Below, piece after piece: positions 13,200 to 43,242 of a stretch of DNA of 43,242 bases (the stretch's first letter is position 1; each line of letters begins with the position of its first letter). The stretch is taken from positions 1 to 43,242 of the forward strand of contig QMSB01000005.1 of the NCBI GenBank assembly GCA_003650815.1, in the 5' to 3' direction. The stretch is from Thermoprotei archaeon (GTDB lineage: Archaea > Thermoproteota > Thermoprotei > Thermofilales > B15-G2). The position numbers and the translations under genes were made by a program. A model generated the notes under the pieces. It did not search any database and had not been told where the DNA came from. It worked only from the letters and a program-made list of their open reading frames with translations.

Positions 13200-15515
13200 A
13201 TGAAATCAGTTTTAGTGAAAGTAAGGGGAATAGTACAGGGAGTAGGTTTTCGTCCCTTTGTTTATCGTCTTGCAGTAAGCCTTGGTCTTAAAGGATATGT
13301 AAAGAATACCGGTGGCTCTGAAGTAGAGATACTTCTTCAAGGAAAGAACATAGACATTTTCTTAGCTAGACTTAGGAAAGAGAAGCCCCCTACTGCACTC
13401 ATAGAGGAAATAGAGGTACATGAAGTAAATGCTCCTCAGCACGAATGCTTCAGGATAATAGCTAGCAGCTATTCTATAGAAAAGTACTCAATGATTCCTC
13501 CAGACTTCTGCTTCTGCGAAGAATGCTTACGTGAAGTACTAAGCGAAAACTCTAGGTGGTATTTATATCCCTTTAACTCATGTGCATGGTGCGGGCCTCG
13601 CTTTACTATAATAGAGAGGCCCCCTTATGACAGAGAGAACACTTCTATGCGAGATTTTCCTCTATGTGAAGAGTGTTTAAGAGAATACCGCGATCCAAGT
13701 AATATAAGAAGATTTCATGCTCAAGGCACCAGCTGTCCTAAATGCGGACCTAAAGTATGGCTGGCTGACTCTTCTGGGGAAAAGGTCGAATGTATTAGTC
13801 CTCTTGTAGAGGCGGCTAAGCTAATTGAAGAAGGGTATATTGTAGCTGTTAAGGGAATAGGGGGTTTTCACTTAGCTTGCTTAGCTACAGACGATGATGC
13901 TGTATTAAGGCTTAGAGAAAGGAAAAGGAGGAGAAGAAAGCCTTTTGCTTTAATGGCACTAGACCTAAAGACTGCGGCAAAGCTAATAGAGGTTACTCCT
14001 ATTGTGGAGAAGTACCTAATTTCGCCTCAAAGACCTATCGTAGTAGCTCTTAGGAAGCCTGAATCAGATGTCTCATTTTATGTTGCTCCAAACTTAAAGA
14101 CACTCGGAGTAGAGCTAGCGTACACGCCCTTACACTATATACTGCTAATGAATACTAGAGACAAGTATCTTGTAATGACAAGTGGGAATTTATCAGGCTT
14201 ACCTATATGTCACACTAATGAGGAGGCTCTAGCGCTTTTGAAAAACATAGCCGACTATTTTCTACTTCATAATAGGAGAATAGTCAATAGAGTAGATGAC
14301 AGCGTAGTGAAAATAGTGAAATCACATGTATCTTTTCTTAGAAGAAGCAGAGGTTATGTTCCTCAGTGGATTAAAGTACCTTTAGCATTTAATAAGAGTG
14401 TAGTAGCTTTAGGAGCTATGTTATCTAATACGGGTGCTCTACTAATTGAGAATAAAGTGATTTTAACTCAGCATATAGGTGATGTAGAGAACATCGAGAC
14501 TATAGAGTTTGAGAAAAAGGCGATAGAGTTTCTTTTAAAAGCCTATAACATCGACATTAAAACATGCGTCATAGCAGTAGATAAGCATCCTCTCTACTTA
14601 ACCAACTTCCTCGCGGAGGAGTATCGCCTAAAGGGAGCTAAAGTACTGAGAGTACAACATCACCATGCTCACATAGCTGCAGTAATGGCTGAACATAATA
14701 TTCCCTTAAGGGCGAAAGTACTTGGCATAGCGATAGATGGTGTAGGCTACGGAGAGGATGGACACATATGGGGAGGAGAGATACTAGAGGTTTCGTATAC
14801 AGACTTTAAGCGCTTAGCTCACTTAAAGTACTTTAAAATGCCTGGAGGAGATATAGCCACTAAGTACCCGGCGAGAGTTTTACTAAGTATTTTATCTGAT
14901 GAGATGACTAAAGATGAATTAAAGAAATTAGCATTAAAACTCAAGCTTCAAAGAAAACTCCCTAGAGGAGAAAAGGAATTGAGTATTGTGCTTAACCAGA
15001 TATATCATTGTAGACAGCCTCTAGCATCAAGTACTGGGAGATTTCTTGACGCAGTTTCGGTTCTTCTAGGTTTCTCTTATGAGAGAAGTTATGAGGGAGA
15101 GCCAGCTATCTTACTAGAGGAAAGAAGCTTTGGTGGCAAAATAGTAGATGAAATAAACTTTAAGGTCGAGGAAGATAGTGAGGGGCATAAAGTTATAGAG
15201 CTAGCTTCTCCTCTCCTACAAGTAGTAGATATGCTCCACCGTACTAGCGTACAGGATATTGGAGCTAGTGTCCAGTACTGGCTTGGAAGAACTTTAGCTA
15301 AAGTAGCCTTAATGTTTAGGAAGAATCATAGATATCTTGTAGTTAGCGGTGGGGCAGCAGTCAACACTTTTATTTCTAAGGGAATATTGGATGAAGTAAA
15401 GGATTCTGGAGAATTAGTCGAAGTAGTTTTCGCTGAGAAAATTCCTCCAGGAGATGGAGGTCTTAGCTTAGGACAGGCTGTTGTTACCGCAGCTAAGTTA
15501 AGTGAATATGTTTAA
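13200..15515 (+). CDS. hypF: Carbamoyltransferase HypF ([NiFe]-hydrogenase maturation)
   Basis: HypF makes the thiocarbamate on HypE from carbamoyl phosphate, the source of the cyanide ligands of [NiFe] hydrogenases. All domains are present in 771 residues, the usual length. The N-terminal acylphosphatase domain (1-90) has RGIVQGVGFRPFV with the catalytic Arg. Zinc-finger Cys pairs follow: C106/C109, C128/C131, C156/C159 and C179/C182. Next come the YrdC-like domain (about 200-385, VKGIGGFHLAC and RKRRRRKPFALM), and the Kae1/TsaD-like C-terminal domain with VQHHHAHIAAVMAEH, AIDGVGYGEDG, and SGGAAVNTFI. The last codons overlap the end of the convergent glycerophosphodiesterase by 18 bases. No other hyp gene or hydrogenase gene lies in the window, so this copy is isolated from its partners. 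Confidence 0.96.
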   Translation: MKSVLVKVRGIVQGVGFRPFVYRLAVSLGLKGYVKNTGGSEVEILLQGKNIDIFLARLRKEKPPTALIEEIEVHEVNAPQHECFRIIASSYSIEKYSMIPPDFCFCEECLREVLSENSRWYLYPFNSCAWCGPRFTIIERPPYDRENTSMRDFPLCEECLREYRDPSNIRRFHAQGTSCPKCGPKVWLADSSGEKVECISPLVEAAKLIEEGYIVAVKGIGGFHLACLATDDDAVLRLRERKRRRRKPFALMALDLKTAAKLIEVTPIVEKYLISPQRPIVVALRKPESDVSFYVAPNLKTLGVELAYTPLHYILLMNTRDKYLVMTSGNLSGLPICHTNEEALALLKNIADYFLLHNRRIVNRVDDSVVKIVKSHVSFLRRSRGYVPQWIKVPLAFNKSVVALGAMLSNTGALLIENKVILTQHIGDVENIETIEFEKKAIEFLLKAYNIDIKTCVIAVDKHPLYLTNFLAEEYRLKGAKVLRVQHHHAHIAAVMAEHNIPLRAKVLGIAIDGVGYGEDGHIWGGEILEVSYTDFKRLAHLKYFKMPGGDIATKYPARVLLSILSDEMTKDELKKLALKLKLQRKLPRGEKELSIVLNQIYHCRQPLASSTGRFLDAVSVLLGFSYERSYEGEPAILLEERSFGGKIVDEINFKVEEDSEGHKVIELASPLLQVVDMLHRTSVQDIGASVQYWLGRTLAKVALMFRKNHRYLVVSGGAAVNTFISKGILDEVKDSGELVEVVFAEKIPPGDGGLSLGQAVVTAAKLSEYV

Positions 15516-34044: not shown

Positions 34045-37000
34045 ATGCTTAAGAAAAGATATTTGATATTTATATTAGGGCTAATAGCACTACTCTATAT
34101 ATCTGTAATACCAGCAGTACCACAGGTCACTATTAGAGGCTATGTCAAGACGAGTGAAGGTAAACCTCATACAAATACACTAGTGGTCGTATTTGATAAA
34201 CAGAACTACGAAGTAAGAGGAGTCACGGTAACTGATAAAAACGGGTATTTTGAGGTAACTGTGCCCAGAGGATACAGGTACATAGTTTTCGTGCTTCCGA
34301 GAACTCTTAATGGAAGTAGGCTAAGTCATGTGCCTGAAGCAGTTTTCTTCAAACACGAAGACTTAGTTGAAGCCACAATAAACTTCATAGTATATCCAGC
34401 AGCGTTTATTAAAGTAGAGGGAACAATACGATATGTTGGCGGAGAGTGGTATGGAGTATATGTATTGACTGTATTGACAGCTGAGGGCACAAGGGTATCT
34501 ACTATATTCAATGCAGGTGAGGCTACTTACTCACGGGAATTCGCTGAAGAGGGAAGAGTGAAGGTAGAGCTCATAGACGAGTATGGTATGTGGAACCCTA
34601 TTCTTATACCATATATAGTTGGAGTTAGAAAAGGACAGCTCCCGCCAGGTCTTCTTAGTGAAAACGTGGCTGTAATTCCAGCGAAGACTAAAGTAATAGT
34701 ACAGTTTAAGACGAGTATAGCAGATAGACGTAAGCCTCCCTTTAGAGTAAAAGATAATACTATAGCTTTCACTATAGGAGAGCCCCTAAAGCCTCTATAC
34801 TTGTCGCCGGGAGACACTGTAGTATATAATATTGAGAGAGAGGCTCTTAGGAGAGTAATGGAAGATGTGAGAAGAGACGTAGACGTAGCCTACAGCATAA
34901 TTGAAGATCTAGAGAAAATAGGCTTCTATTTAGCTCCAGAGAGAGCAGAGCTCTCTAAAGCGCTGACGCTGATAGAGGAAGCTAAACTAGACTACGAGAA
35001 ACAGCAGCCAGTAGACCAGATAGTAGAGAAGCTCGAGCGAGCACACTTTGTGGCTACTCAGAGCGTCGCTAACAGAGTATTTTTCCTCAAGACAGTAGCA
35101 CTGGAAGGAGCACCACTACTCTCCTACTTCATAGCAGTCTTCTCAGCAGTCATGGCATACTACTTCTTCGAGGACCCGAAGAAAAAGCTGTACTCCTTCA
35201 TCATATTCTTCGCCGTGTTTATGGGAATTTTCGCCGTTTCCTACCCAGGATTCCCTCTGCTCTGGAACAATAGAAGAGATCTCTTCCTACTATCAGTGTC
35301 AACGGCTTTCCTAGGAGTACTCTTCCTACTCTTCTACCTTCCAATAAAGATCAGAGAAGCAGAGCTTCCAGGAAAGTTCAGAAAGGGAGCAATAGTAGCT
35401 GTGACATTTTCCCTAGCAAAGAGGTTCTCTAGACTCAAGAAGACTAGAACAGGAATAGTAGTATTCTCGCTAGCAGCACTAATATGGGCTTTCACAGTAC
35501 TAGCATCCATATCAACAGTATACGGAATATGGAGCACCGAAGTCCAATCAGTGTCACAGGTCAATGCACTAGTGGCGAAGCACCTGCTAAACGAAACAGT
35601 AGTGAGTTCTCTAGGATACTACTCTGACTACGAGTGGTTTGTCAAACAACTAGGAGAAGATAAGGTGTCAGTAACAGTGTACAACGACCCTGGAATAAAG
35701 GTAGACATAGTCCTCCGCTCTAAAGGAAAAACCGTTAAAGTTAAGGTCTTCATGGGACTTTCCGCCGTAGAAGACAAAATAACTAAGATATCAAAGATAC
35801 TAATTAAAGGAAACTGGAGCGAAATATCTGAGCCAAACGCTGTCCTCCTTCCATCGAGTATTGCAGAGTCTCTCGGAGTCTCTTATAGAGACGAGATAGA
35901 AATAGAGGTATATAGACCTGGAATAGACAGACCTAAGCCAGAAAAATACATAGTCGTAGGCATATTTGACGAGGGTCTGCTAGATAGCTTAAAAGACCTC
36001 GACAGTCAGCCCTTAAAGCCCTTTGTCGCAGTAAAAGAGGGTTTTGCTCCAGCCAACTCAACTGAAATAATCATAGGAAACTGGAAGCACTTACTCAAAG
36101 AAGTGTTGCTCGAGGAGAAAACAAGTTTCTCAGCAGTATTCAGAATATTTAGAATCGCTGCTAGAGCAGACCCGTCTACTTTAAAAGACCTCGCTCGAAG
36201 GTACATTGAGAGGAGGGGCGAAGACTACTATGTTTACGTTAATTCTGAAGGAAAGTGCTACAAACTATTCTTCGGGCGCAAAGTAGAGAATATTCTCGCG
36301 AGAAACATAGACTTCATTATACCAATAGCAATAGTAATTTCAGTAGTCCTAGTCTCTATGTACAGCATAGTAGAGGAGAGGAGAAGAGAAATATTCATCT
36401 TTAACGCAATAGGCTTCAATCCAATGCACGTAGCCTTCTTGTTCCTAGCTGAGTCAATAGTATACGGCCTCCTTTCAGGAGGACTAGGCTACATAGCTGG
36501 AATAGTCACATTCAGAGTCATGGCAACATACTTCTCTACACTCAACTTGCTAGTGAGAGAGAAGCTAGAATGGTACTGGAGCATAGTAGCTATAGGGATC
36601 TCGATAATAGTTGCAATGATATCATCCTTTAAGCCAGCACTCAAAGCAGCAATGATGTACACTCCCTCCAGAGTAAGAAGAGTAAAGGTAACAGAAGCGG
36701 AGAAAATCAAGCGTGAAGAAAGAATACTAGTAACATATGTTGGCAAACGCTACCTCCTATCAACTAAAGTAAAGGAAGAGGAAGCAGTAATATTCTTCTC
36801 CTATGTCTACTCCAGACTAAAAGACATGGAAGCAGGATACACTGAGAGAGTAGAAGACTTAACAGAATATGAGGAAGAGGAGCTGCCAGACGGAACCCTG
36901 GTAAAGAGATTCACATTTAAGTGTTCTCTGCTAATAGAAGGAGAGAGAATAGTAATAGACAACGAGCTCAAGTGCACAAAATATCCGAAGGAGAAGTATT

Positions 37001-37140
37001 ATAGAGTAGAGCTTTACGCTAAGCCCCACGGAGAAAAGGAGATTCCTCTAAGGTACCTAGACAGAGTAGCATCCATGGTAAACGACATACTGAAATCATG
37101 GGAAGAGGAAAGAAAGAGAATACTAGCGTCCTACAGGTAG
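34045..37140 (+). CDS. FtsX-like ABC permease with N-terminal carboxypeptidase-regulatory-like domain
   Basis: The 1031-residue protein has a signal-like helix (LIFILGLIALLYISVIPAV), then a beta-sandwich of the carboxypeptidase regulatory/Cna-B type (TIRGYVKTSEGKPHTNTLVVVFD to VTVPRGYRYIVF), a helical linker (VDVAYSIIEDLEKIGF), three hydrophobic helices between about 350 and 435, the FtsX N-terminal helix (RTGIVVFSLAALIWAFTVLASI), a large external domain with VSQVNALVAKHLL, and the FtsX C-terminal helices from IDFIIPIAIVISVVLVSMYS to SIIVAMISSF. After TPSRVRR a cytosolic tail of about 140 residues follows. MacB/LolC-type permeases export or extract lipids or proteins with an ATPase partner. 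It is the first gene of an operon; the stop lies 4 bases before the next start. No ATPase gene is visible. Confidence 0.75.
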   Translation: MLKKRYLIFILGLIALLYISVIPAVPQVTIRGYVKTSEGKPHTNTLVVVFDKQNYEVRGVTVTDKNGYFEVTVPRGYRYIVFVLPRTLNGSRLSHVPEAVFFKHEDLVEATINFIVYPAAFIKVEGTIRYVGGEWYGVYVLTVLTAEGTRVSTIFNAGEATYSREFAEEGRVKVELIDEYGMWNPILIPYIVGVRKGQLPPGLLSENVAVIPAKTKVIVQFKTSIADRRKPPFRVKDNTIAFTIGEPLKPLYLSPGDTVVYNIEREALRRVMEDVRRDVDVAYSIIEDLEKIGFYLAPERAELSKALTLIEEAKLDYEKQQPVDQIVEKLERAHFVATQSVANRVFFLKTVALEGAPLLSYFIAVFSAVMAYYFFEDPKKKLYSFIIFFAVFMGIFAVSYPGFPLLWNNRRDLFLLSVSTAFLGVLFLLFYLPIKIREAELPGKFRKGAIVAVTFSLAKRFSRLKKTRTGIVVFSLAALIWAFTVLASISTVYGIWSTEVQSVSQVNALVAKHLLNETVVSSLGYYSDYEWFVKQLGEDKVSVTVYNDPGIKVDIVLRSKGKTVKVKVFMGLSAVEDKITKISKILIKGNWSEISEPNAVLLPSSIAESLGVSYRDEIEIEVYRPGIDRPKPEKYIVVGIFDEGLLDSLKDLDSQPLKPFVAVKEGFAPANSTEIIIGNWKHLLKEVLLEEKTSFSAVFRIFRIAARADPSTLKDLARRYIERRGEDYYVYVNSEGKCYKLFFGRKVENILARNIDFIIPIAIVISVVLVSMYSIVEERRREIFIFNAIGFNPMHVAFLFLAESIVYGLLSGGLGYIAGIVTFRVMATYFSTLNLLVREKLEWYWSIVAIGISIIVAMISSFKPALKAAMMYTPSRVRRVKVTEAEKIKREERILVTYVGKRYLLSTKVKEEEAVIFFSYVYSRLKDMEAGYTERVEDLTEYEEEELPDGTLVKRFTFKCSLLIEGERIVIDNELKCTKYPKEKYYRVELYAKPHGEKEIPLRYLDRVASMVNDILKSWEEERKRILASYR

Positions 37141-37144
37141 CGGT

Positions 37145-38719
37145 ATGAAGACCATTGGAAAAGATGTTATTTTAACTCTGTTTATAGCAGGTCTCTTTAT
37201 CTCAAATATAGTCTCCCTGCTGGGCTCTTCTACAAGAACCTTCACTTTTTCTCCTCGAGAAGAGTACCTCAGACTAGCAGAAGAAGCCTATCGCTGGATG
37301 ATGCAGTTCCAAATAACTCCCCCGGGAACTCCCTGGGGATGGCACCTAAACTGCAGCGAAGCATGGGGAGGACTAGCAGGCTACTACACTAGAAAATACA
37401 GGTGGGCAGCCCTCTACGGTGCTGAAAGCTTCTACCAGCTGTACATAGCCTCGCACGACGTAGGCTGGTTCATAGAGCTAGGCGTAGAGCTATACAAGAT
37501 CACAAGGAAAAACGAGTACCTAAAGGCAGCCGAACTAGCCGCCCAGTGGGCCATGAGAATACAAGTAGGGTACAGCAAGTGGCTCGACGAATTCAAGTCA
37601 TTCTACATCGCTCCGAGAAAAGTCGGCAGAAGCGTGAGCTGGAGATACATTCCCGGAGTAAACTTCCCCAGAGAAGCCGCGGGAGCTTATACTGAAGGAA
37701 TGTTCGTTTTCAGCGGAAAGCCTCCCTTCATGGACGACTGGGGAGTAGGCGAAGAATTCGCTGAGCCCGCTCTCTGGATAGCTCCTGAGCACGTAACGCC
37801 CATAGCTCAGGGACTGCTGAAACTCTACGAAGTTACTCACAACAAAACATACCTTACATCAGCTCTAAGGGCAATAGACTTCGTAATAAGAATGCAGAGC
37901 CCCGAAGGCGGGATATACACGAGCTACCCACCATATGCATACGGTATAAGAATGGGCGACACAGCTGACGCCGCCCTACTACTCTTCTACGCCTACAAAG
38001 TCACCGGAAACAAAACATACCTAGAGAGAGCTCTCCTAGCGTGTGACTTCATGTTAAGCAAACAAGTGGCTAGAGGGAAGAGAAAGGGAGCCCTACCTCA
38101 CTTGTCGTCGGCTGGAGGAGAATGGAGAGTAAATAGCTTTTTCACAGGAGACGCGGCAGCAACAATTTCAGCGTGGCTAGAAGCATATGAAATAACAGGT
38201 GATGAAAAATACTTAAACGCGGCTTTCAACGCGGGAACATTCGTTATCTCGATGCAAGAAGTCGGAAACGAGCCCCTCTGGGGCGCCAGACTGTACGCCT
38301 ACGACAAAAGAGCCATCGGAGGATTCTACTGGGTATACAGCCCAGGATATGGGTACATAGCCTACCAGTTCATAGGAACCACTACTTCAGCAGCAATCGC
38401 CCTACTCAAACTCTACACGAAAACAAGATTTTCACTATTCCTCTCACACGTCAAGCTAGCACTGAGATGGCTAAGAGAGACAGAAATATATTCTCCTCTA
38501 GGCCGAGAACTAGAGCTCCCCGGCCTAGTAGTCTACAGCGACCCCCATGGACTCTACAAAAGCGGATACGTGCCAAAATACGGAAAATATTACGATGAGA
38601 TCCCAGGAACAATGTCAGGAGACCCTGAGCAAGGCTTCTGCGTAGCAATGGCAGCTGCAGGCCCCTGCTACTTGTATCTAGAGCTTTACAGACTATACAG
38701 TGAAATAGAGGGGGGATAA
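37145..38719 (+). CDS. Secreted alpha/alpha-toroid protein (C5-epimerase or glycosidase-like)
   Basis: A 524-residue protein with an N-terminal signal or anchor (VILTLFIAGLFISNIVSLLG), predicted to lie outside the membrane. The rest consists of repeated helix pairs of the six-hairpin/AGE type: EEAYRWMMQFQIT, AAELAAQWAMRIQV, LRAIDFVIRMQSPEGGIYTSY, LLACDFMLSKQVARG, AFNAGTFVISMQE and VKLALRWLRETEIY. Each has the W/F-x-x-x-Q pattern of alpha/alpha toroids seen in D-glucuronyl C5-epimerases and family 88/127-like glycosidases. These act on polysaccharides, but I see no confirmed catalytic residues and would not name a reaction. It lies between two FtsX-like permeases with gaps of 4 and 3 bases, so it is co-translated with them and probably works with them at the membrane. 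Confidence 0.7.
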   Translation: MKTIGKDVILTLFIAGLFISNIVSLLGSSTRTFTFSPREEYLRLAEEAYRWMMQFQITPPGTPWGWHLNCSEAWGGLAGYYTRKYRWAALYGAESFYQLYIASHDVGWFIELGVELYKITRKNEYLKAAELAAQWAMRIQVGYSKWLDEFKSFYIAPRKVGRSVSWRYIPGVNFPREAAGAYTEGMFVFSGKPPFMDDWGVGEEFAEPALWIAPEHVTPIAQGLLKLYEVTHNKTYLTSALRAIDFVIRMQSPEGGIYTSYPPYAYGIRMGDTADAALLLFYAYKVTGNKTYLERALLACDFMLSKQVARGKRKGALPHLSSAGGEWRVNSFFTGDAAATISAWLEAYEITGDEKYLNAAFNAGTFVISMQEVGNEPLWGARLYAYDKRAIGGFYWVYSPGYGYIAYQFIGTTTSAAIALLKLYTKTRFSLFLSHVKLALRWLRETEIYSPLGRELELPGLVVYSDPHGLYKSGYVPKYGKYYDEIPGTMSGDPEQGFCVAMAAAGPCYLYLELYRLYSEIEGG

Positions 38720-38722
38720 CTT

Positions 38723-40573
38723 ATGTTCGACAAAGCCTTCCAGTTATCAATAATGATATTCTCGAGCCTAATGGTAGCACAGCTTTTCTCAAGATTCTTA
38801 TTCGAGAAAAAATTTTACAGAAAATCGAACTTCATACTCCTATTCCTTACGCTAATAACCACAATGTATAGACTCGAGCCAGCGCCCTTCGATATGGCTC
38901 TATCCCTACTAACACCACCCTTCAGACTAGAGTACCTAATGACAGTCATCATAGCATTCCTACCCTTCTTAATACCAGTCGCAATACTATTCATTAGAGG
39001 AGAAACATGGCTTCTCTCAGAAACAGTAGTGAGATTTATGAAAAGAAGACCACTGAGAACACTACTCAACATAATCACAATAACCCTACTATTATCAGCA
39101 CTAGTAGGTGTAACATCAATATCACCAGTTAAAACAGTATACTCTATAAAAATAGCCCCCAGTCCTCCCGAAACCCTTAAGAAAGAAAAACTCTATATCC
39201 TTTGCTATAAAAAGTACTTCTGGAAAACCACTACAGAGTATAGCATCCAGAGAGAAGAAATAGAGCCTATCACACTAGAACTTAAAGTAGGTTTCTTATC
39301 TCTTTTCAAAACACCCGTAGACACAGCAAGCTTTCTATGGGTAAAGGGATACGCTGACTCCAAAGAAATATCAATCCTTATAACCAGCACAGAGTTCCTA
39401 CAAAAATATTTAAGCGAAGCAGTAGATTTAAGTAAAAACGACAGCAGAGAAGTATATGTATCAAGAAATCTCTCAGCAAACAAAATAGTAATCCCCTTCA
39501 CCAATACCATGTTAACACCAAGTGGAGTATTTACTATCAAAAGTAGTATAGCTTTATCAAGAGAGCTAAAAATATTCGACAAAAGGCCCGACGTAATAAT
39601 AGATATAGAGGAACTCAGTCCACTAGAACTACTAAACCTAATAGACGCAGGTACAACAGAGTACATCATAGTAGCTACTAAAGAAAAAATCGAAGTATCA
39701 AAACTAGCAAAATTCATCAAAAAGTTCTCAACAGAATATACTTCAGGCGCACAAGCAGTAGTAGAAACACCCCTTGTATACCAAGTAGACTCCACTGGAG
39801 TAATAGAGTATTTCACCATAGGAACATACTACTCTCTCACAGGTGAACTCACATACTTCTCCTTCTCAGCCATAATGATCGCAGTAGTCCTATTCTCAAC
39901 AATACTAGGATCCGTCTACGAGAGAAGCAAAGAATACTCCACAATAAGCTGCCTCGGAGCATCCCCACGCACAATATACTTCCTCATGTTCCTCGAAGGA
40001 GCATACCTAGCATCACTAAGCGGCTCAGCCGCCCTCTTCACATCCCTCCCATTCCTCAAACAAGTAGCCGCACTAAAATCCAGCAGCGACATCTCCTCAG
40101 CATTCTTCATATCACTCGGAGTAAGCTACCTCTCCGTAATAGCATCATACCTAGCCCTAAGACTCAAAGGAATACTAGCAGTAACACCAAGCCGCACAGA
40201 AAAATACACAGCCGAAAGAGGAAAACACGGAGGAGAATTCGAAGTCCCCATAAAAATCCACGACTGGAACAACTTCAAGCGTTTCCTCAAAGGAATCGAG
40301 GGAAAACACGTCGAAGCAGGAATCAAAATACTAAAAGTAACCGAAGAAAACGGAAAACTAAAAGCACTAGTCGCATGCGGCATAGAAAGAGAAGCCCTTT
40401 ACATATTCACACTAACACACCTAGGAGAGTCCGTAAAGATTGAAGTAGCAGGCGAAAAAACTTGGACAGCTGAACATTCTAGGCTATACGACCTAGCCGT
40501 AAGAAAATTCAGAAAACTAGCCCTAAAATACACACTCAAAACATCCCAACCCTATACTCCAAAAAGTTCCTGA
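38723..40573 (+). CDS. Second FtsX-like ABC permease
   Basis: The 616-residue protein resembles the membrane part of the gene at 34045. Seen: an N-terminal hydrophobic region (LSIMIFSSLMVAQLF and TLITTMYRLEP), LMTVIIAFLPFLIPVAILFI, the FtsX N-terminal helix RPLRTLLNIITITLLLSALVGV, an external domain of about 200 residues (160-370), then YFSFSAIMIAVVLFSTILGSVYERSKEYSTISCLGASPRTIYFLMFLEGAYLAS, the FtsX C-terminal core with the R-S-K-E-Y-x-x-x-x-x-L-G-A pattern, and a cytosolic tail of about 120 residues after VTPSRTEKY. It lacks the N-terminal Cna-B-type domain of its partner. Both permeases have the T-P-S-R junction to a tail, which suggests a LolC/LolE-like heterodimer. The third gene of the operon; the 3' end carries a hairpin that includes the stop codon. 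Confidence 0.75.
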   Translation: MFDKAFQLSIMIFSSLMVAQLFSRFLFEKKFYRKSNFILLFLTLITTMYRLEPAPFDMALSLLTPPFRLEYLMTVIIAFLPFLIPVAILFIRGETWLLSETVVRFMKRRPLRTLLNIITITLLLSALVGVTSISPVKTVYSIKIAPSPPETLKKEKLYILCYKKYFWKTTTEYSIQREEIEPITLELKVGFLSLFKTPVDTASFLWVKGYADSKEISILITSTEFLQKYLSEAVDLSKNDSREVYVSRNLSANKIVIPFTNTMLTPSGVFTIKSSIALSRELKIFDKRPDVIIDIEELSPLELLNLIDAGTTEYIIVATKEKIEVSKLAKFIKKFSTEYTSGAQAVVETPLVYQVDSTGVIEYFTIGTYYSLTGELTYFSFSAIMIAVVLFSTILGSVYERSKEYSTISCLGASPRTIYFLMFLEGAYLASLSGSAALFTSLPFLKQVAALKSSSDISSAFFISLGVSYLSVIASYLALRLKGILAVTPSRTEKYTAERGKHGGEFEVPIKIHDWNNFKRFLKGIEGKHVEAGIKILKVTEENGKLKALVACGIEREALYIFTLTHLGESVKIEVAGEKTWTAEHSRLYDLAVRKFRKLALKYTLKTSQPYTPKSS

Positions 40574-40621
40574 AAAGCACTACTCCACTCTCTGGAGGTG
40601 TGCAGGGCCACCCTCAGGAAC
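40566..40621 (+). terminator. Branched stem overlapping the stop codon of the second permease
   Basis: GTTCCTGA (40566-40573, including the stop TGA) pairs with TCAGGAAC (40614-40621). Inside are a second hairpin, CTCCA (40583-40587) with TGGAG (40593-40597), and a weak GTG/CAC pair (40598-40600 / 40609-40611). The layout suggests a three-way RNA junction at the 3' end of the operon. No T-tract follows, so it may be an mRNA-end structure or a protein-binding site rather than a classical terminator. Confidence 0.4.
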
Positions 40622-40741
40622 CACTAAACCCCTATCCCCAACCCATCTCTCCATAGTCGAATAAAACATAAAACTCTTACGCGTCAACAGCCAATACAAC
40701 ACAATCGGAGCAAGAGGTCACCTAACCTGATTCTCATACTT

Positions 40742-40770
40742 AGAAGGAGGTATCCTAAAATACTCCTTCT
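40742..40770. repeat. 8-bp inverted repeat in the A/C-rich intergenic region
   Basis: AGAAGGAG (40742-40749) pairs with CTCCTTCT (40763-40770) around a 13-base loop. It lies 170 bases after the permease operon and 410 bases before the transporter gene. It could be a terminator hairpin for the operon or a protein-binding palindrome. No T-run follows. Confidence 0.4.
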
Positions 40771-41124
40771 TATCAAGATTAACTACTATAAAACGCTCAC
40801 CCATACGCACACCAAAACCTTGTCCCATAAAACATATAAAAATATTAACCCACCAATACAAATCAAGAAGCCATCAAGCCAAACAAAACACAAATCTCCA
40901 ACCACACCTCCCAAACAACCTACAGCTAAGCCCAGACCCCCCATAGACACACTACTAAACATATGTAAAACCAAAGATATTAAAAAAGACAAGCACACTT
41001 AAAAGAAACCTTTCTAAACAACAACATACAGCAGACTCACACACCACACATTAAGAAGCGAAATTTAACTAAGTAAAAACAACCAAAAGTGCTCAGCAGG
41101 AGGTATATATTCTTTTCGATAAGC

Positions 41125-41133
41125 CTTAAATAA
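41125..41133 (+). promoter_or_regulatory. TATA-like box of the OPT-like transporter gene
   Basis: The sequence cttaaataa lies 50-58 bases before the ATG at 41183. Transcription would start near 41155 and give a leader of about 28 bases that holds GTGAGGG (41169-41175), a likely ribosome-binding site. Confidence 0.4.
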
Positions 41134-41182
41134 TTTTACTCACTAGTTAAAATAGTTCTTGATATAGTGTGAGGGATTAAAT

Positions 41183-43204
41183 ATGGGAGAGGAGACAAAA
41201 GTAAAAGAAGTAGAGCCCCTAGCCATTCTCAAGTCACCTAGACTAATAATCCTATGGATAATAATACTACTAGTATTCATCCCCTACCAAGCATTCAGAC
41301 TATACGGATGCTACGGCAACGGAGAACCATTCATATACCTAGTACTCTTACTAACAGCCATAATCGGCATAGCAAGCAAGAAATTCAAGCTAACACCACA
41401 AGAAGCAACAATAGCCTTTGCCATAGCAACAGTAGTAGCAGACATATCAATATACACAGCATTCTACATATGCCCACTAATGGGCATACCCTTCATCAAC
41501 CTCTACGGCGGACCCAACCTAGACAAAGTAAAAGACTGGATCCCCTCATGGATGCTCATACCCAAAGAAGTCCTAGAACCAGCTAGAAACGGAGGAGCAT
41601 CACTACCCTTCGGACCATTCCTACCAGTACTAGCCTTCCTAACAATATTCCTAGTATCCCTTAAGTTACTACAGCTAGCAACAGCAGGTATCATCGCAAG
41701 ACAGTGGATAGAAGTAGAGAGACTCCCATTCCCAGCCTTCATGCCAAGCCTCTACGTAATCAAATACTACTCCGAGGAAGTAGGAAAGAAGCCTAAACTA
41801 CTAACACTCAAAGGAAACTCAGCATACTGGCTAGGCTTCGTAATAGGCTTCGTAGTAAACGCCATAGCCATCATGGAAGTATTCAGCGAAATCGTCACCG
41901 GCAAAGTATATATCCAGCTGCCCGCGAGCACGGGATTCATTGGACAGTTTGTAGTTGATCTCAGATTTTTAGAGCCGTACTTGCCGGGTGCAATGCTGTA
42001 CTGGTATCCGGGACTTGACTTCGGTTTCTTCCCAGTGGCTTTGTTCCTTCCACTGGACGCTATGGCGACTGCTATACTGTGGTTCTTCCTGTGGTATATC
42101 TTTTACCCAGCGATAGTTAATATTCTTGGAATATATCCGACTAAGGTTACTGCGGGTCAGCTTGGTAATGGTGCTGTCGGTCCATGGCCTTTCAGGTGGG
42201 TTGGATTAATAGCTGTGCCCTTCGGTCTAGGTCTCTACGCGCTTGTGTTTAACTGGAGGTACTTTAAGGACTACTTGACTAAGGCATTTAAGAGGACTGA
42301 GCTTAATCCCTCACTTCCTGAGACTCTGCCAGTGTATACTGGTATAGTGGCGTTTATACTAATGGTAGCTCTACTAGCTGCGATAGGAATGCCTGTAGTA
42401 CTAGCGATCATATGGATGATCGCTGTAATTATATTCTGGCTCGGTATGGCTAGGGTGGCTGGTGAGTACTTCACACAGCCACTGGACTGGAGAGGATTTA
42501 TCAATGGTTTTATGGGCTTCTCGCAGACTATAATGGGCTGGCCTAACCCGTATCCGTCTAAGGAGGCTTGGGGCACAATAATGAGTATGAGACTGACTAA
42601 CAACGTTGTGGAAAGAGAGGTTGACAGCTGTTGGGGCTTCCTTGGATGGTACCGTGTCGCAAGGGATACTAATACGAGTTGGAAGGCGTTGTATATCGCT
42701 CAACTTATAGCAGTAATTATAGGAGTGATTCTTGCTTGGCCAGCTGTCTACGGGCTGGCTTACTACAAGGGTATTGAAGTGAGCTGGAGTGGATATGTGA
42801 CGAGGGTGTTCATTAGGTATGGTGCTAGGAGATTTGTTGACTATGGTCTAGCGGGTACAGTGAACGCTATTGGTACATGGAATATGTTCAGGGTTGGCTG
42901 GTTCTTCGGAGGCATTATAATGGTGTTCGCTATTATCTGGCTGAGGCTTAGATTCCCATGGTTCTTCATTAACCCTGTTGGTCTGCTGTGGCAGCATCCG
43001 TGGTGGCTCGGCGCTACTATGCTGGCTTTCGTTATAAAGTATGTCGTTATTAAAGTGGGTGGTGCGGAGGCTTACGAGAAGTACTTGATACCGTTTGCTG
43101 TCGGCTGGGCTTTCGGAGGTGCTATAGGTACTCTAGTGACATACTGGCCTGAGAACATTTCTAGAGCCTTCTTCAACAGAGTGTTCGCATGGTTCTGGTG
43201 GTAA
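41183..43204 (+). CDS. DUF6785/DUF6784-type OPT-like polytopic transporter
   Basis: The 673-residue protein has about 14 hydrophobic segments, and resembles the OPT-superfamily-like DUF6785/DUF6784 proteins common in thermophilic crenarchaea. Seen: SPRLIILWIIILLVFIPYQAF, FKLTPQEATIAFAIATVVADISIYTAFYI, GNGAVGPWPFRWVGLIAVPFGLGLYAL, GEYFTQPLDWRGFINGFMGFSQTIMGW, and the C-terminal RLRFPWFFINPVGLLWQHPWWLGATMLAFVIKY with the HPWW segment. OPT proteins move oligopeptides or metal-siderophore complexes with protons; what this branch moves is not known to me. A GTGAGGG ribosome-binding site fits the ATG start. The first third of the gene is A/C-rich and the rest G/T-rich on the coding strand; the switch falls near codon 250. 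Confidence 0.8.
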   Translation: MGEETKVKEVEPLAILKSPRLIILWIIILLVFIPYQAFRLYGCYGNGEPFIYLVLLLTAIIGIASKKFKLTPQEATIAFAIATVVADISIYTAFYICPLMGIPFINLYGGPNLDKVKDWIPSWMLIPKEVLEPARNGGASLPFGPFLPVLAFLTIFLVSLKLLQLATAGIIARQWIEVERLPFPAFMPSLYVIKYYSEEVGKKPKLLTLKGNSAYWLGFVIGFVVNAIAIMEVFSEIVTGKVYIQLPASTGFIGQFVVDLRFLEPYLPGAMLYWYPGLDFGFFPVALFLPLDAMATAILWFFLWYIFYPAIVNILGIYPTKVTAGQLGNGAVGPWPFRWVGLIAVPFGLGLYALVFNWRYFKDYLTKAFKRTELNPSLPETLPVYTGIVAFILMVALLAAIGMPVVLAIIWMIAVIIFWLGMARVAGEYFTQPLDWRGFINGFMGFSQTIMGWPNPYPSKEAWGTIMSMRLTNNVVEREVDSCWGFLGWYRVARDTNTSWKALYIAQLIAVIIGVILAWPAVYGLAYYKGIEVSWSGYVTRVFIRYGARRFVDYGLAGTVNAIGTWNMFRVGWFFGGIIMVFAIIWLRLRFPWFFINPVGLLWQHPWWLGATMLAFVIKYVVIKVGGAEAYEKYLIPFAVGWAFGGAIGTLVTYWPENISRAFFNRVFAWFWW

Positions 43205-43220
43205 ACTAGAATAATTAAAT

Positions 43221-43235
43221 TTTTCTTTCTTTTTC
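43221..43235 (+). terminator. U-rich terminator after the OPT-like transporter
   Basis: A run of TTTTCTTTCTTTTTC begins 16 bases after the stop of the transporter gene, the usual form of an archaeal transcription terminator. Confidence 0.55.
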
Positions 43236-43242
43236 TAAATAC

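Follow-up and report, generated by a model that had tools for sequence, protein, structure and literature searches.

The window analyzed here is the whole of contig C5 (43,242 nucleotides) of a draft Thermoprotei genome of 1.99 Mb in 175 contigs that is 85% complete and comes from an uncultured thermophilic archaeon. Judged by its closest named relatives, this archaeon belongs to the order Thermofilales. A gene on the plus strand at 41183 to 43204, a 673-amino-acid open frame, encodes a DUF6785/DUF6784 membrane protein whose family membership is supported by Pfam scores above the cutoff for both domains (PF20581, 53.4 bits against a cutoff of 25; PF20580, 30.6 bits against 26.4). No named relatives of this protein were found. 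Within the gene, the plus strand changes abruptly from A/C-rich to G/T-rich. A reading of the sequence alone had already placed a switch inside one open frame near 41,935, and the base counts that it gave for 41341 to 41400 and 42781 to 42840 were exact on recount. In a likelihood change-point analysis of all bases, the best position was 41931 (3-lnL interval, 41817 to 41948), which the frame crosses, and the cumulative (A+C)-(G+T) curve reached its maximum at the same base. Third-base A+C in the gene fell from 0.91 before the flip to 0.41 after it (A.51, C.35, G.11, T.03 before; A.18, C.20, G.30, T.32 after), giving an lnLR of 86 for the drop, compared with a maximum of 9.2 among 2,000 shuffles. 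The codon change described in the same reading, from CTA, GTA, and ACA to CTT, GTT, and GGT, was borne out by the counts: CTA accounted for 22 of 33 leucine codons before the flip and CTG or CTT for 23 of 41 after it, GTA for 17 of 19 valine codons before and GTG or GTT for 27 of 38 after, and alanine codons shifted from GCA and GCC to GCT. At 4-fold sites, A+C fell from 0.95 to 0.29 at 41931, the largest fall in the 1.32 Mb of the genome first surveyed, and the switch was about 100 bp wide. The center is coding and not A/T-rich, and no RNA element was found close to it. These data indicate that the composition flip is real and very strong.

To the left of the center, plus-strand A+C rises between 29319 and 41931 (0.55 to 0.95 at 4-fold sites), in a ramp of 10 to 12 kb that spans several genes. 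An FtsX-domain protein gene lies at the foot of the ramp (34045 to 37140, plus strand; 4-fold A+C, 0.54 to 0.74), followed by a GH76-like glycosyl hydrolase gene (37145 to 38719, plus strand; 0.69 to 0.80) and an FtsX-like permease gene (38723 to 40573, plus strand; 0.76 to 0.94). The noncoding gap at 40574 to 41182 has the same A/C bias as its neighbors (A94 C64 G13 T29 in 40801 to 41000), and codon choice is therefore not the cause. The skew had also been described as weaker at 1 to 30 kb, in agreement with a 4-fold A+C of about 0.5 there, which begins to rise at about 30 kb and reaches 0.95 at 41.9 kb. The multigene ramp, the biased noncoding gap, and the recurrence of the pattern across the genome were all missing from the sequence-only reading.

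The right arm (41932 to 43242; 4-fold A+C, 0.27 to 0.33) is G/T-rich and is cut short where the contig stops. The first gene of contig C18 (L066, 1 to 4805) is an M28-peptidase/FtsX gene, and it lies in an arm that is likewise rich in G/T. Since DUF6785 genes often adjoin an M28-peptidase/FtsX gene, an order also seen on contig C1, C18 may continue the right arm of C5 from 43204 to 43242 onward. This join is unproven, because another long M28 gene is present on C142.

Recurrence across the genome and strand dependence

The survey for similar foci covered about 1.5 Mb, or ~75% of the draft, with early figures taken from 1.32 Mb. Local 4-fold A+C had a standard deviation of 0.126, compared with 0.056 from sampling alone. 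In this portion of the genome, we found at least six further two-sided foci, all changing from A/C to G/T. Those on C1 (near 27 to 28 kb) and C19 (near 15.65 kb) lie deep in their contigs, while that on C34 (near 2.27 kb) is a weak case with a left arm just 1 kb wide. Others were rebuilt through exact contig-end overlaps, namely, C16 with C57 (22 bases), C36 with C35 (123 bases), and reversed C68 with C61 (123 bases). The flip rebuilt from C16 (L064/L145) and C57 (L105) has two radical-SAM genes (by eye, resembling lipoyl synthase) on one side and a lipoate-ligase-like gene on the other, and a coherent gene cluster therefore spans the center. One-sided skewed contig ends, tallied with a cutoff of 0.25, had the same A/C-to-G/T polarity in 15 cases and the reverse in none: eight left ends were G/T and none A/C, and seven right ends were A/C and none G/T. 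In total, there are roughly a dozen or more foci in this chromosome. At these foci, the bias is strongest at the center and fades over about 5 to 10 kb, and the polarity is such that the outward 5'-to-3' strand is G/T-rich on either side. The earlier argument for a local cause is upheld, with many short-range foci in place of one replicon-scale skew.

The assembly seems to break near centers, perhaps owing to between-strain variation; a search for repeats common to the contig ends returned nothing but assembly overlaps and scattered repeats. In a pattern search that counted extended stretches of A/C third positions, this genome ranked first of 101; ordinary codon bias also influences that count. 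The most strongly A/C-biased arm in this genome (C13:20001-26359; L061), with 4-fold A+C of up to 0.98, enters a CRISPR-Cas locus (cas1 and putative cas2 and cas4), where the contig ends. A few abrupt steps have the opposite sense, as at C34:1384 and C16:14904. On C16 (L064), the sequence from about 4.5 to 15 kb is G/T-rich, more strongly so rightward, until an abrupt change to A/C at 14904 that may reflect a recent inversion.

We compared genes on both strands near the centers. On the genomic strand, A+C within 3 kb to the left was 0.76 in plus-strand genes and 0.78 in minus-strand genes, and within 3 kb to the right it was 0.25 and 0.23, respectively. Noncoding DNA over the same distance had an A+C of 0.60 on the left and 0.39 on the right. 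At 2-fold sites in genes binned by skew, C/(C+T) went from 0.85 to 0.11 and A/(A+G) from 0.81 to 0.10. Genes on either strand and noncoding DNA thus track the genomic strand, and the C/T and A/G shifts are about equal, which marks the bias as one of mutation acting by strand, as in animal mitochondrial DNA; its direction of mutation is read from composition only. The mitochondrial heavy strand is G/T-rich, C and A having been lost from one strand (PMC3269012). Repeated copies gave too few informative pairs for a test of mutation direction. Loss of uracil repair was considered and rejected, the UDG family being present twice in the genome.

Origin features in this genome and its relatives

The sign change at 41931 has the polarity of a replication origin, as the sequence-only reading had pointed out. 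That part of the origin reading stood, and the polarity recurs at the other foci; the many foci that decay within 5 to 10 kb and the behavior of orc1 loci did not agree with it. The one full-length orc1/cdc6 gene found in the 85% complete draft (C8:34850-36265; L050) is closest to those of Thermofilaceae (~60% identity), and no Orc1/Cdc6 gene was found on C5. tRNA-like genes lie upstream and downstream of this orc1, and the downstream one is also the site of a moderate A/C-to-G/T flip. The average skew profile around orc1/cdc6 was flat over 61 named Thermoproteota loci, Sulfolobales included. Some single relatives also have a flip just downstream of orc1 (L230, L195, L209, and L181), and in the complete genome G003, from the same order, a ramp and flip lie about 10 kb from orc1. 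No motif common to seven centers rose above controls, no ORB-like repeat was recognized by eye at the orc1 of this group, and co-orientation of genes with outward forks was not found at the foci. An ORB-reminiscent 14-mer, TCCAGTTTCCTGGA, had exact matches only at C13:22665 (L060/L061) and C19:16191 (L067) in 1.32 Mb, both at most ~0.6 kb from A/C-to-G/T changes.

Flips of the same polarity are present in other Thermoproteota genomes. They lie near 715, 722, and 875 kb in G096, where a CRISPR array adjoins the 722-kb flip. The surrounding segment (G096:C1:705001-725000; L120) is a defense-like locus with a nine-repeat array and very abrupt composition steps of both senses between neighboring large genes. 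In G031, flips near 1187, 1206, and 1729 kb are broader. In 1.73 Mb of DNA from relatives, overlapping windows with a strong drop from A/C to G/T numbered 255, versus 118 for the opposite sense (~2:1). The phenomenon is not unique to this genome, and it is strongest here among the DNA surveyed.

Proposed mechanism and alternatives

The explanation that we favor, at a little under an even chance, is a recurrent origin-like or recombination-primed start of outward, strand-displacing synthesis at fixed sites. Under this model, 41931 would mark the center of one such focus, with strand-asymmetric mutation recurring at about a dozen or more fixed places in the chromosome. Synthesis would begin repeatedly at the foci, with origin-like or recombination-primed initiation as our first choice, and would move outward both ways, displacing a strand. 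The outward strand, single-stranded when exposed (or newly made with wobble errors), would gain C-to-T and A-to-G changes, in the manner of the mitochondrial heavy strand. We favor this model because the polarity is the same at the other two-sided foci and at all 15 skewed contig ends, because the bias is independent of gene strand and has the spectrum of the G/T-rich mitochondrial heavy strand, and because of the moderate flip directly downstream of orc1 and the ramp and flip near orc1 in G003. A standard origin is disfavored by the decay of the skew, which is short for a replication fork; by the presence of more than 10 centers versus the one full-length Orc1/Cdc6 found; and by the flat mean at orc1, the centers without a common motif, and the genes without co-orientation. 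These points also weigh against the favored model, as do the opposite-sense steps on C34 and C16 and a mutation direction that comes from composition only. We consider it rather unlikely that the full form of the model holds, in which a dozen or more fixed, bidirectional, strand-displacing starts, one of them intragenic, mutate a few kilobases per side almost to saturation. Repeated copying starts spreading outward from many points would be unusual for an archaeon, and we know of no archaeon in which such initiation, or recombination-primed copying with a mitochondrial-like signature, has been described.

It is also possible, although unlikely, that double-strand breaks recur at the centers, or that the centers are hot spots of recombination, and that resected kilobases are refilled there in an error-prone manner, with wobble errors adding G and T outward. 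The 5- to 10-kb range matches resection tracts, many centers without many initiators would be expected, some foci occur at defense or CRISPR-Cas loci (C13, with cas1, and the 722-kb flip of G096), and the predicted polarity is the same as that for outward synthesis. However, damage to the exposed 3' tails would give the reverse polarity, so that refilling errors would have to dominate, and a repeat or common site at the centers was not found.

We also weighed a joining of DNA of unlike composition by lateral acquisition, inversion, or recombination between DUF6785 paralogues, which we regard as quite improbable. A chimera of two paralogues joined by inversion had been the alternative proposed from the sequence alone, with comparison to other DUF6785 genes as a way to assess it. 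The gene has homologues in 15 of the 24 genera searched, and full-length ones extend across the flip. When the halves were compared separately with 26 relatives, they did not have different nearest relatives: the same G006 gene was closest to both, at 35% and 32% identity. This identity is low enough to leave room for recombination between close copies. On the side of paralogue recombination, the DUF6785 paralogue on C1 likewise has a composition drop close to the corresponding region, at about codon 272. In codon profiles along the alignment, only this paralogue had a clear drop there, with L018 and L019 dropping weakly. The third DUF6785 gene (C14) has no focus, nor do the wider loci of nine relatives. 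Some abrupt steps do match single genes (C34), as lateral acquisition would allow. In contrast, the smooth ramp continues through several genes up to the break, the bias disregards gene strand, its polarity is fixed, and flips of this kind are also found between the genes of coherent clusters, all of which speak against a chimera.

Transcription or translation bias, whether through codon selection in highly expressed genes or coding-strand mutation, is very improbable: the coding strand is slightly A/C-preferring genome-wide (0.527), but plus- and minus-strand genes track the genomic strand equally, noncoding DNA does so too, and the flip is mid-gene. An assembly misjoin is scarcely credible, since, although the break is 1.3 kb from the contig end and many skewed arms stop at contig ends, the frame is open and homologous across 41931 and two-sided foci of the same polarity lie deep within C1 and C19.

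Significance and comparison with known systems

Should the foci prove to be start sites, base composition by itself could reveal them in uncultured archaea to within ~100 bp, and this lineage would depart from textbook archaeal origins in the number of its starts and in their range. Should they prove to be break sites, they would provide a map of mutation hot spots driving strand-by-strand gene evolution. Either way, codon use near a focus mirrors position and not ancestry, so codon-based detection of gene transfer or chimeras would be misled.

The abrupt jump and gradual return at these foci resemble the profiles of human replication origins, where an N-shaped skew has an abrupt central jump and returns gradually on both sides. 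Human profiles extend over hundreds of kilobases to megabases with small amplitude, whereas those described here extend over kilobases and approach saturation. Like skew jumps at archaeal and bacterial origins, as seen by GC skew and Z-curve analysis (PMC4010727, PMC3269012), the foci show a C-to-G and A-to-T sign change; unlike them, they peak at the center, fade in 5 to 10 kb, number a dozen or more per genome, and are not generally found at orc1. The closest likeness in spectrum is to animal mitochondrial DNA and its strand-displacement replication (PMC3269012), with G/T versus A/C strands, C/T and A/G transitions, and graded strength. The mitochondrial-type asymmetry here, in which C/T and A/G are shifted equally at 2-fold sites and a displaced single strand is inferred, differs in being multifocal and bidirectional on a cellular chromosome, whereas in mitochondria it affects one strand of a small circle.
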